Shown here: in pieces, positions 48,624 to 52,732 of the stretch
Numbering within the stretch: the first letter of the stretch is position 1
Layout: the number at the start of each line of letters is the position of its first letter
Assembly: GCA_036271555.1 (NCBI GenBank)
Contig: DATBAK010000083.1
Location: 62,001 to 126,000 of the forward strand
Length of the DNA: 64,000 nucleotides
Origin: Acidimicrobiia bacterium
GTDB taxonomy: Bacteria; Actinomycetota; Acidimicrobiia; IMCC26256; PALSA-610
Direction: 5' to 3'
Notes under the pieces: model-generated
The model's input: the letters and a program-made list of their open reading frames with translations, nothing else
What the model was told of the DNA's origin: nothing
The model's database searches: none
Made by a program: the position numbers and the translations under genes

Positions 48624-48702
48624 CGCGCTTCCTCCGCACTTCCCCTCTGTCGCGTCCGACGCGGCCATTCCCTTGGCCGTCAGTACTGCTCAGAGGGAGT
48701 CA

Positions 48703-49617
48703 ATGCCAACGGAACCCGCGCTTGCTCTGATCTCCGAGCTGAGCCGCCCGACGTTCGGCGTTTTCCGTGGTCGGGATGCGGTCGCGCTCGACATCACGCG
48801 CAATCGACTCACGACGCTCTGTGCGAGCGGTGTTCTCCTGCGCGTGCTCCCTGACGTGTACCGAATGACCGTCGTCGCTCCATCACCGATGCAACGGCTC
48901 GTCGCGGCGCTCCTCTGGGCGGGCGATGCGTCTGCCGCCGGGACGCGATCTGCGGGTGAGGTCTACGGGCTCGAGGGCGTCCGCGCTCAGAAGCCGGAGA
49001 TCGTCGTGCCCGGCGACAGCTGGCTGCGATCCGATCAGGTCGCCGTCGCCCGGCACCGCGACCGCGCGCACCTGATGATTCGCAACCACCGCGGGATGCG
49101 GGTGACGGGCGTCGAGGCGACGATCGTCGCGCTTGCGCACGCGCTCGACAGCGAATCGTTCGAGATCGCATGCGAGGACGCTCGTCGCCGGCGGCTCACT
49201 ACTGTCGCCGCACTCCGCGCGTACCTGAACCGTCACGGACGTCGTGGCCTGCAGGGCGTACGCGCGACGCGCGCGCTGCTCGACGAGCTCGACCCGTTCA
49301 CACCGTCGCGCTCGATGCTCGAGGTCAAGACTCGACGTCTGCTCGTTGCGAGCGGCTTCGGCGACTTCGAGCGCGAGCTCCCGCTCGAGTGGAACGGGCG
49401 CATCTACCGGTACGACTTCGCGTTGCGAGCGAGCCGCACGATCCTCGAAACGAACGGCCGCCGTTGGCACGACGACGCAGCCGACTACGAGCACGACAAC
49501 GAGAAATGGAGTGTCCCCGCGCGCTACGGCTGGCGCATCGTGTTCGCGACATGGGACAAGGTCACGCGGCGACCCGAATCGCTGCTCGCAGAGTTGGCGG
49601 CCGTGTCGGCGGCGTGA
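48703..49617 (+). CDS. AbiEi-like antitoxin-domain protein with DUF559-type nuclease-like C-terminus
   Basis: This 304-residue protein has an N-terminal winged-helix and AbiEi-like region (ITRNRLTTLCASGVLLRVLPDVYRM, then ALLWAGDASAAGTRSAGEVYGLEG). The C-terminal domain recalls DUF559/Vsr-type PD-(D/E)xK nucleases (YRYDFALRASRTILETNGRRWH). No AbiEii toxin gene is adjacent, so it is an orphan. GGGAG precedes the ATG at 48703. Codon third positions seem less GC-biased than in neighbours, consistent with accessory ancestry. Its stop abuts the stop of the convergent gene (TGATCA). Confidence 0.8.
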   Translation: MPTEPALALISELSRPTFGVFRGRDAVALDITRNRLTTLCASGVLLRVLPDVYRMTVVAPSPMQRLVAALLWAGDASAAGTRSAGEVYGLEGVRAQKPEIVVPGDSWLRSDQVAVARHRDRAHLMIRNHRGMRVTGVEATIVALAHALDSESFEIACEDARRRRLTTVAALRAYLNRHGRRGLQGVRATRALLDELDPFTPSRSMLEVKTRRLLVASGFGDFERELPLEWNGRIYRYDFALRASRTILETNGRRWHDDAADYEHDNEKWSVPARYGWRIVFATWDKVTRRPESLLAELAAVSAA

Positions 49618-50010
49618 TCAGGATTCGGTGGCGCGGGCGGTGCGTTCGTCGGCGAGGTCGCGGGCGAGCTTGAGACCGAGCACGGCCGAGCCGAGCGCGG
49701 CGGGGCCGACGAGGCGCCCACGCGCGGGCACGCCCGGCGAGGTGAGCGACACGAAGCCGTCGACCGCGTCGGCGATGCTGCCCATGCCGACCCACTCCGC
49801 GTCCTGCGTCCGCTCCTTCACGCACGTCAGCGCGCCGGCGCCGAGAATGAGATCGCGTATCCCGACCATCCGCAGCAGCGCGCGCGTGCGGGGCGAATGA
49901 TCACCGAGCCACAGGCGACCCGCGAGGCCGGGCAGGACGAGCAGCACGAGCCCGACGACGGCGCGGCTGCGCCCGAGGATCAGAGCCATCTTGCGCGCGT
50001 CGAGATCCAT
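49618..50010 (-). CDS. Hypothetical small membrane protein of the swivel operon
   Basis: This 130-residue protein has a basic N-terminus and hydrophobic segments at about residues 15-32 (SRAVVGLVLLVLPGLAG) and around 48-62. A weaker segment lies near residue 100. It resembles DUF4267-like small membrane proteins, but I do not assign it. AGGA lies seven bases before the ATG at 50010. The start overlaps the upstream gene's stop (ATGA), making it the last of four genes. Confidence 0.65.
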   Translation of the reverse strand: MDLDARKMALILGRSRAVVGLVLLVLPGLAGRLWLGDHSPRTRALLRMVGIRDLILGAGALTCVKERTQDAEWVGMGSIADAVDGFVSLTSPGVPARGRLVGPAALGSAVLGLKLARDLADERTARATES

Positions 50011-50660
50011 CAACCGATCCTCTCACGCGAGGGGAGGAACGACTCGATCCAGGCCGTGCCCCGGCGCCCGTCGACGCCGCCCGCCGCGCCGAGCGCGCGC
50101 GTCACGACACCCGAGTCGATCGGCACCAGCGCACGCGACCGCACGGCGATGTCGGCCCCGGCGCCGTCGGACCACGACCCGTCGTCCCACGCGACGATCG
50201 TGCGTTCACCGAACCCGACGACCGGCGCGTCCGCATGTGTGAACACGCCCGGCGTGTCGACGGGGATCGTGTCCCGACCGAGCAACACGTCGCCGCGCAC
50301 GCGGCCGCCTTCGTCGGTCGTCTCCCATTCGAGATCGAGACCGAACGCGACGCGCTCGCCGATCTCTCCGTTGAGCGCGTCCTCGGGTGTGTCGAGCGCG
50401 ACGGCGAACGCCTCGAGGCCGATGCTCCAGTGCTCGTCCGGCGTCTCGCACACGAGCTCGGCCCACAGCGAGTCGGCACGAATCTCGAGCGCACGCCCGC
50501 GCGGCAACGCGACCTCGTGATCGCGCACGACGACGGGCCCGAGACCCGGTCGCCACAGGTACGCCCAGTACCACGCGACCCGATCGTCGGGATGCAACGC
50601 GAGGCGTACGAACCCGCCGTCACCGTCGGCGGTCCCCCATTCGAACGACCAGGACCTCAA
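50010..50660 (-). CDS. Unknown beta-rich protein of the swivel operon
   Basis: This 216-residue protein is predicted to be mostly beta-strand. Conserved-looking blocks include AWYWAYLWRPGLGPVVVRDHEV, ADSLWAELVCETPDEHWSIG and GLDLEWE, reminiscent of AttH/lipocalin-like or DUF7064-like families. TTG at 50660 overlaps the upstream stop (TTGA) and is the only reasonable start. Its own stop overlaps the next gene (ATGA). The function is unknown; the coupling suggests it acts with the 376-residue protein. Confidence 0.65.
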   Translation of the reverse strand: MRSWSFEWGTADGDGGFVRLALHPDDRVAWYWAYLWRPGLGPVVVRDHEVALPRGRALEIRADSLWAELVCETPDEHWSIGLEAFAVALDTPEDALNGEIGERVAFGLDLEWETTDEGGRVRGDVLLGRDTIPVDTPGVFTHADAPVVGFGERTIVAWDDGSWSDGAGADIAVRSRALVPIDSGVVTRALGAAGGVDGRRGTAWIESFLPSRERIG

Positions 50661-51787
50661 GGAATCGGCGGGTAGTACACCGCCGCGTCCTGCTCGATCT
50701 CGGGCGTCGACTCGAACAGCTCGAGCAACGGATACAGGTCGAGGCTGTCGCGCGGCATCGACCAGTCGAGCTGATCGGCAACGCCCGCAGCCTCCGCGAA
50801 CGGGCGCAGGAACGTGAAGTACACGTACGCGCCCGCGTTGATCTTGTCGCGCCGATCCATGTCGGCGATGAGCCGGTAGAGCTTGCGCTGCGCGGCCTTC
50901 ACCGACTCGCCGAGCGCGAGCGCGTCCGACTCGATGATCGGAACCGCGCGGCCGCTCGTCGGATCGAAGAGACCGAACGCGACGAGGCGATCGAGATAGT
51001 CGGACGGATCGGTGACCGACGTACCGAAGTCGGTGACGTGGAAGTCGACGCCGTCGAGCACGAAGGCCGCGAGCACTGTGGAGTACGGCAGCTCCGCCGC
51101 GATGTCGTGGCTCCACGCGAAGTCCGACACACCGAAGCGGTTGAACGCGCGCAGCAGCAGCACGCGCCCGTCCGGAAGCAGATACGGACCGGTGTCCTGA
51201 TAACCGGCGCGCGTGTCGAAGTAGAGCAGGAAGAGATACGACGTCAGCAGCGCGTTGAGACGCGACAGGCGCGCGCGATGTTCGTCGTCGCGCACGGGCA
51301 GGCAGCCGGCGACGATCTCGTCGACGTGATCGGTATACGGCGTGACGACCCCGGCCGCGTCGGCCGCTTGCAGCGTGCCGTCGGCACGGAACTCTGCGGC
51401 GGCGCGCTTCCAGAAGTCGAGCACGACCGCGGTGCGCGAGATGTCGGCGTCGAAGTCGATCAAGCCGCCACCCGCGAGCACGGACCGGCCGACGAGGTAG
51501 ATGTTCGCGATCGACCAGAGGTGCACGGTGTCGATCTGGTTGCCGAGCTCGCGCCCGCGCGCACCGAGCGACTCCGGCGTCGTCGCGGCCGCGATCGCGG
51601 TCATGAGCTCGGGGTGCCGGCGGTAGCACTCGACTCCCGAGACGAGGATGTACGCGGTCACCGGGATGAGCGCGGACTCGAGCGCGGTCCGCTGCACCGT
51701 GAGGCCGTGCGCGATCTCGCCGTGGTACCGCAACATGCGGTTGACCTCGTCGCGATCCCAGCCGTCGGGAAGTGCGAGCGCGGTCAC
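50657..51787 (-). CDS. Unknown alpha-helical protein of the swivel operon
   Basis: This 376-residue soluble, mostly helical protein has no signal peptide, no ATP-grasp motifs and no family I recognise. Notable blocks are ECYRRHPELM, YLVGRSVLAGGGLIDFD, SYLFLLYFDTRAGYQDTGPY and DGVDFHVTDFGTSVTDPSDY. GTG at 51787 is one base from the swivel-domain stop, implying coupled translation. A catalytic partner for the swivel domain would be expected here, but I see no nucleotide-binding motif. Confidence 0.65.
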   Translation of the reverse strand: MTALALPDGWDRDEVNRMLRYHGEIAHGLTVQRTALESALIPVTAYILVSGVECYRRHPELMTAIAAATTPESLGARGRELGNQIDTVHLWSIANIYLVGRSVLAGGGLIDFDADISRTAVVLDFWKRAAAEFRADGTLQAADAAGVVTPYTDHVDEIVAGCLPVRDDEHRARLSRLNALLTSYLFLLYFDTRAGYQDTGPYLLPDGRVLLLRAFNRFGVSDFAWSHDIAAELPYSTVLAAFVLDGVDFHVTDFGTSVTDPSDYLDRLVAFGLFDPTSGRAVPIIESDALALGESVKAAQRKLYRLIADMDRRDKINAGAYVYFTFLRPFAEAAGVADQLDWSMPRDSLDLYPLLELFESTPEIEQDAAVYYPPIP

Positions 51788-51788
51788 G

Positions 51789-52136
51789 TCAGACGGTCCG
51801 AACGACGCCGGGCGTCGACGAGCAGTCGACCTCGACGAGCGCGTCGGTGTCGGGCTCGGCGTCGAGCGTCGCGGCCATGAGGCACGGCACGCGGTACTCG
51901 CGGCTCACGATGCCGATGTGACTCATCGGCGTGCCCGACAAACACACGACCGCGGTGAGATCGTCGAAGATCGGCGCGAGGAACGTCGCACCCGCGTCGA
52001 CAACGCACGCGACCACACCCTCGGCCGAGTCGTCGAGCAGGTCGAGCACGTCGTCGGGATTCGAGAGGCGGCGCCAGCGACCGCGCACCGGTGCCGCTTC
52101 GAAGACGATCGTGCCGGTTCCGATGTCGTCGCTCAC
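51789..52136 (-). CDS. Stand-alone PEP-utilising swivel (mobile phosphohistidine) domain
   Basis: This 115-residue protein corresponds to the mobile domain of PEP synthase, pyruvate phosphate dikinase and rifampicin phosphotransferase. Its core LSGTPMSHIGIVSREYRVPC aligns with their (T/S)xHxAIxARExxIP signature, with His73 as the candidate phospho-carrier. In known enzymes this domain shuttles phosphate between an ATP-binding domain and a substrate domain, neither of which is attached here. The GTG start has TAGGCT (52146-52151, complement) nine bases upstream. It heads a four-gene operon. Confidence 0.75.
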   Translation of the reverse strand: MSDDIGTGTIVFEAAPVRGRWRRLSNPDDVLDLLDDSAEGVVACVVDAGATFLAPIFDDLTAVVCLSGTPMSHIGIVSREYRVPCLMAATLDAEPDTDALVEVDCSSTPGVVRTV

Positions 52137-52145
52137 GGAGGGCGG

Positions 52146-52155
52146 AGCCTACGCT
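52146..52155. promoter_or_regulatory. Overlapping divergent -10 elements
   Basis: In the 10-bp sequence AGCCTACGCT the minus strand reads TAGGCT (nine bases before GTG 52136) and the plus strand reads TACGCT (seven bases before GTG 52163). The two hexamers share the central TA, so RNA polymerase can hardly occupy both. Confidence 0.5.
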
Positions 52156-52162
52156 GACGGCG

Positions 52163-52732
52163 GTGGACGCGCTCACCGACGAGCAATGGCTGCTCGTGCA
52201 CGAACTGCGCCTCCGCGGGGTGATGGAGGCGGGCGACGACGAAGGTGTCGACGTGATCGTGCAGTCGGGATACGCCGTGCGGAAGTCGACCCGCGTCGTG
52301 ATCACCGCCGAGGGCCGGACCGCACACACCGAGTGGGCGCGCTGCGCGCCGGCGAGCGATTCCGAAGCCGCACTGGAGCGCAGCTTCGACCGCTTCCTGC
52401 CGTTGAACGGCGAGCTGCTGCAGCTCTGCTCCGACTGGCAGGTGAAACGGAGCGGCGCGACGAACGACCATCGCGACGCCGCCTACGACTGGTCGGTGAT
52501 CCAGCGGCTCGTCGCGCTCGACGAGCGCGCGGGCGCGGTGGCGCGCCACGCGAGCCGCGCGCTCGAACGCCTCGCGCCCTACCGTGCGCGACTGCGCGAC
52601 GCGCGCCAGAAGGTCGAAGCCGGCGAGCACGACTGGTTCACGTCGCCGCGCATCGACTCGTACCACACGGTGTGGATGCAGTGGCACGAGGACCTCTTGC
52701 TCGCGCTGGGCCGGGAACGGGAGACGGAGTGA
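52163..52732 (+). CDS. Possible winged-helix regulator divergent from the swivel operon
   Basis: This is a 189-residue protein. Its first roughly 65 residues (LTDEQWLLVHELRLRGVMEAG, then a helix and ITAEGRTAHTEWARC) look like a winged-helix DNA-binding unit. The rest is helical and charged, ending before a Trp/His-rich SYHTVWMQWHEDLL. No family is certain. Location and the shared promoter region suggest control of the divergent operon, which is inference. Confidence 0.6.
   Translation: MDALTDEQWLLVHELRLRGVMEAGDDEGVDVIVQSGYAVRKSTRVVITAEGRTAHTEWARCAPASDSEAALERSFDRFLPLNGELLQLCSDWQVKRSGATNDHRDAAYDWSVIQRLVALDERAGAVARHASRALERLAPYRARLRDARQKVEAGEHDWFTSPRIDSYHTVWMQWHEDLLLALGRERETE

Follow-up and report, generated by a model that had tools for sequence, protein, structure and literature searches.

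A stand-alone PEP-utilizer swivel domain, a 376-aa protein of an unnamed family (p376) and a 189-aa Rv1126c-type protein (div189) form a conserved and apparently undescribed multi-component system; a literature search for swivel/p376/div189 clusters returned no description of them. On balance, we lean towards reading the three proteins as parts of a PEP-utilizer/dikinase-type histidine phosphotransferase that has several components and is split differently from the known ones. In the window, by which we mean the whole analyzed stretch of 64,000 nucleotides, the locus consists of five genes:

51789..52136, (-) strand: swivel (115 aa), a stand-alone PEP-utilizer swivel (mobile) domain with the predicted phospho-acceptor His73 in CLSGTPMSHIGIVSRE
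50657..51787, (-) strand: p376 (376 aa), unnamed family, predicted acceptor/substrate subunit
50010..50660, (-) strand: b216 (216 aa), short DUF7064/DUF7065-type protein, a recurrent but variable fourth partner
49618..50010, (-) strand: small membrane protein (130 aa) with a translationally coupled gene, probably outside the core
52163..52732, (+) strand: div189 (189 aa), Rv1126c-type, winged helix plus four-helix bundle, proposed donor-docking subunit

All five genes were verified at these positions, as the preliminary description of this DNA had given them, and have homologues in many genomes; their GC3 values lie between 0.88 and 0.91. The p376 gene starts with GTG after a 1-nt gap behind the swivel gene, and b216 starts with TTG within a TTGA overlap, both as described earlier. 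The last junction had to be corrected, since it reads TTGATGG and the ATG start of the 130-aa gene overlaps the preceding stop codon as TGATG, not as ATGA. The div189 gene is divergent from swivel, with 26 bp between the two starts. Neither p376, b216, the 130-aa protein nor div189 exceeded a Pfam or NCBIfam cut-off, and searches with these libraries revealed neither an ATP-grasp nor a PEP-binding domain in the operon proteins. The ATP-grasp domain by which a dikinase would be recognized (PPDK_N) is thus absent from both the swivel protein and the window operon. The window belongs to a genome of 4.7 Mb that has actinobacteria among its relatives; a scan of genome contigs gave one locus. Next to the operon, a 314-aa protein (48673-49617) showed weak, sub-threshold matches to the AbiEi antitoxin and MTES_1575 nuclease families.

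The swivel domain and its His73, which had been proposed from the DNA alone, were borne out. The protein matched PF00391 with E=1.7e-7 (31.1 bits against a Pfam cut-off of 23.1), and its profile matched the swivels of PEP synthase, rifampin phosphotransferase and Enzyme I in the PDB. Residue 73 is indeed a histidine, located after a Gly-containing loop, and it is invariant together with the surrounding G...SH...R in 26 aligned homologues. Moreover, it is present in all 63 swivel homologues printed in our pairing survey, in which we identified the SH by eye. This conservation speaks against the very improbable alternative that phosphotransfer has been lost and the swivel is now a purely structural subunit of p376, a notion that would fit the motif C..GT, which replaces the canonical T..GG...H in the majority of window-type copies.

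Swivel and p376 are a near-obligate pair. A swivel gene was located within 600 bp of p376 in 58 of the 67 copies examined, mostly directly upstream and on the same strand; the nine exceptions comprise copies at contig ends, three pairs spaced 0.66-8 kb apart and two pairs in divergent orientation. Fusions of the two have arisen in several lineages and were observed in one genome (G463, locus L188) and on Rhodococcus plasmids, and plasmid pROB02 of R. opacus B4 encodes a single 793-aa protein composed of swivel, p376 and div189. We detected p376 in 32/198 relatives and in 46/395 genomes sampled within the class. Across the phylum, by contrast, only 6/396 genomes had it, four of which are from the class. 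The preliminary description had asked whether its four genes co-occur elsewhere: the swivel/p376 pair does, whereas the b216-type partner is recurrent yet variable, and the distribution of the 130-aa gene is local. Since the pair recurs widely and the p376 family is unnamed, we retain the earlier designation as a candidate new system.

In a quick tree, the window p376 fell into a 35-row clade of class members, apart from plasmid and accessory copies (SH-aLRT 99). Two genomes (G027 and G037; loci L069 and L035) contain up to eight p376 matches each, with three or four swivel-p376 pairs adjacent on one contig, an arrangement that suggests substrate diversification. The p376 genes of the betaproteobacterium Methylibium (L120) and of an actinobacterial genome (L184) are closely related, with tree branches of 0.05 and 0.11, and share their gene order, which likely reflects recent horizontal transfer.

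The p376 family was compared with known proteins. None of 36 members had a Pfam match, and NCBIfam gave no match either, so that p376 could not be assigned to a known unrelated enzyme family, an outcome considered at the outset. Sequence searches of the PDB, with p376 alone and as a profile, yielded nothing at E<=1 or E<=10. The AlphaFold model (pLDDT 92.8, pTM 0.92) comprises a helical N-terminal part, a beta sheet and two C-terminal helices; it found no credible relative in the PDB (Foldseek, VIA re-alignment) and none in BFVD, which falls short of proving a new fold. There was no sequence match to the PEP TIM barrel or to the RIF-binding type, including a four-sequence RIF-binding-type/PRK05865 profile, and no credible structural match to either in the searches run. 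In the alignment, Arg, Gly-Pro-Tyr and Trp positions are invariant and Asp is nearly so, and no nucleotide-binding motif was recognized in any family search. By analogy with dikinases, we favor a role for p376 as the putative acceptor subunit rather than the donor.

The third component, div189, belongs to the swivel/p376 system. Homologues were present in 43 of 46 genomes with p376 compared to 4 of 34 without it (Fisher p=2e-14, uncorrected for phylogeny), and the three p376 genomes lacking div189 are 72-85% complete. In two families (f27 and f28), div189 and p376 are present or absent together. This link is not merely one of adjacency, since the two genes are on different contigs in many genomes. 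The preliminary description had suspected a divergent regulator, and a winged helix was indeed found, but the co-occurrence and the R. opacus B4 fusion make div189 more than that, namely a member of the system. Its model (pLDDT 96) consists of a winged helix (residues about 1-60) followed by a four-helix bundle (63-185). Residues 1-60 superimpose on MarR (Z 9.4, rmsd 2.1), the top Foldseek match is PadR (E 0.13), and no Pfam regulator family exceeded its cut-off.

A div189 homologue adjoins VadK in genome G286 (L194; A3 profile E=2.7e-47, 31% identity), which we took as Mycobacterium from a PRK05865 match over cut-off beside a polyketide-synthase end. VadK (Rv1127c) is a truncated pyruvate phosphate dikinase (PPDK), and Rv1126c is its operonic partner in M. 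tuberculosis (PMC13400623). Coexpression of Rv1126c improved the solubility of VadK, and 2 M NaCl was used to separate the two proteins (PMC13400623). This purification protocol suggests that Rv1126c physically binds VadK, a PPDK-family protein, and the partners of the div189 family may in turn bear on VadK function.

The same features could be read as a regulatory module, in which the swivel would sense the PPDK/PEP state, div189 would be a DNA-binding regulator and p376 a ligand sensor or scaffold, in a PTS-like signaling system without a product. The MarR-like winged helix with its PadR match, the divergent orientation of div189 at 26 bp from swivel and the proposal that VadK regulates enzymes through binding (PMC13400623) are consistent with such a module. 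In contrast, the fusion of div189 with swivel and p376 in one chain, the several paralogous pairs per genome and the catabolic appearance of plasmid clusters rich in alcohol- and acid-activating enzymes argue against it, and we regard it as rather unlikely.

We also examined where a phosphoryl group could come from. The absence of a donor domain noted in the preliminary description applies to the operon only, as the window genome encodes a PPDK and related operons encode PPDK-like proteins with ATP-grasp and swivel. Apart from the stand-alone swivel, the window genome contains one PF00391 and one PPDK_N domain (E<=0.001), both within one 912-aa frame on another contig that represents a full-length PPDK (ATP-grasp, swivel and PEP-binding domain). 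The trio is accompanied by an ATP-grasp+swivel protein without a full PEP-binding domain on plasmids of Rhodococcus and Paraburkholderia as well as in G352, G321, G027 and G037, although the G321 protein retains a weak partial match to that domain. Since these proteins sit with the trio, PPDK-family proteins are the obvious candidate donor. PPDK as a universal linked donor was nevertheless rejected: PPDK_N showed no statistical association with p376 (37/46 carriers versus 30/34 noncarriers), and eight near-complete carriers lack it.

Seven of these eight carriers contain a 512- to 625-aa open frame with swivel and PEP-binding domain ("headless" PPDK; L227, L226, L228, L224, L236, L237 and L239, one of them in a single-contig genome). 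Four comparable noncarriers without PPDK_N had no such frame (0/4) and no PF00391 at E<=0.001. The comparison (7/8 versus 0/4; p=0.01) involves few and related genomes and is thus suggestive only of a preferential retention of headless PPDK by carriers that lack PPDK_N. Four headless PPDKs, three of them from distinct genera, were checked with Pfam and had neither PPDK_N nor the Enzyme I (EI) N-terminal domain. The remaining near-complete carrier, G518, has neither PPDK_N nor a PEP-binding domain. As judged from these domain contents, what the carriers appear to have in common is the phosphohistidine domain of PPDK, and ATP, PEP or both could serve to charge it.

Alternatively, p376 itself might be the phosphoryl donor, as a new nucleotide- or phosphoester-using enzyme charging the swivel without PPDK. 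We consider this improbable: its unmatched predicted fold, its conserved Arg and Asp and the eight near-complete carriers without PPDK_N would be compatible with such a role, but accessory operons add an ATP-grasp protein, headless PPDKs occur in seven of those eight carriers and the family searches recognized no nucleotide-binding motif.

In the phosphotransferase that we prefer, a PPDK-family protein (the full PPDK in the window genome, VadK-like or headless forms elsewhere) would generate phosphohistidine from ATP or PEP, and div189 would dock this donor. His73 of the stand-alone swivel would accept the phosphoryl group from the phosphohistidine of the donor or at its nucleotide/PEP site. 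The charged swivel would then swing to p376, which may hold the putative acceptor; this is probably a small compound, for example an alcohol or enol. We infer the phosphotransfer, its donor, its direction and its acceptor from the observed domains, pairing, fusions, co-occurrence and conserved histidine. Several points stand against this model: PPDK_N does not track p376, the PPDK of the window genome is unlinked to the operon, the carrier G518 has neither PPDK_N nor a PEP-binding domain, p376 resembles no known acceptor domain by the four-sequence profile, and VadK-like donors already possess a swivel of their own, which leaves the second one unexplained. The system most likely operates in the manner of a dikinase whose PPDK-type donors are exchangeable; we did not file it as a dikinase because the window operon has no linked ATP-grasp and the acceptor domain is unmatched. 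A more tentative possibility is a PTS-like His-to-His relay, in which a PPDK-family protein charged by ATP, PEP or both would take the place of Enzyme I and the swivel carrier that of HPr, with an Rv1126c-type adaptor, an acceptor site of new fold in p376 and paralogous pairs for different substrates.

Known systems share some of these features. In the two-component small-molecule dikinases HpeHI/CreHI/PpsAB and in rifampin phosphotransferase, a swivel histidine carries phosphate to an acceptor domain, and a separate protein may supply the ATP-grasp (PMC12167813); indeed, swivel and acceptor domain of the HpeHI dikinase work with a separate ATP-grasp protein (PMC12167813). In contrast, the swivel described here is usually a protein of its own, apart from the putative acceptor; the profile comparison showed no relation between p376 and RIF-binding-type acceptors, there is an additional div189-type subunit, and the window operon lacks an ATP-grasp gene. 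The system resembles VadK/Rv1126c in that div189 is homologous to the VadK-adjacent Mycobacterium gene and VadK-like proteins accompany the trio elsewhere, but the Mycobacterium (G286) locus shows no swivel/p376 pair and the window genome has a full PPDK instead. Enzyme I/HPr of the PTS would be similar as a phosphohistidine relay with a swivel, and headless PPDK resembles Enzyme I in combining swivel and PEP domain; however, the headless PPDKs checked lack the HPr-binding EI N-terminal domain, and the putative carrier is a swivel and not HPr. Rv2047c-type proteins (PRK05865) are likewise actinobacterial swivels without ATP-grasp in the same chain, but they combine an epimerase and another middle domain in one chain, and the profile including this type was unlike p376. 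The 25-hydroxysteroid kinase was also considered for comparison; it is reported to bear little similarity to known phosphotransferases.

The remaining operon genes and the neighborhoods of the trio were examined for hints about the acceptor. The window b216 itself has no DUF7064/DUF7065 match; among 17 homologues, six match DUF7065 (best E 6e-13) and five match DUF7064 (best E 3e-25), and DUF7064/DUF7065 proteins are located beside the trio on four plasmids. The 130-aa protein reached DUF4267 only below cut-off (E=5.6e-4), and its homologues are found mainly in the window's own family. Plasmid neighbors of the trio include acyl-CoA ligases, alcohol and aldehyde dehydrogenases and biotin carboxylase subunits; in Methylibium, they include a methylmalonyl-CoA mutase family protein and B12 genes. 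From this gene neighborhood, an alcohol or ketone is a reasonable guess for the acceptor of the plasmid copies; no clear indication comes from the chromosomal copy. Glycerol-type genes (alpha-glycerophosphate oxidase/dehydrogenase, FAD oxidase, FGGY kinase) were disregarded as a clue to function because they are syntenic neighbors on the opposite strand. A Rhodococcus plasmid operon (L115, L116) combines two swivel/p376 pairs and a fusion with acyl-CoA ligase, div189-type, VadK-like and biotin carboxylase genes, and is reminiscent of the phosphorylation-carboxylation Hpe pathway.

Swivel, p376 and div189 thus represent a conserved, putative phosphotransfer set built around a family that neither Pfam nor NCBIfam contains. 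They provide a hypothesis for VadK and other truncated dikinases, as VadK-like proteins and Rv1126c-type partners are accompanied elsewhere by a swivel and by a dedicated subunit that is the putative acceptor. In plasmid clusters for alcohol or ketone degradation, the set may point to the activation of small molecules by phosphorylation.
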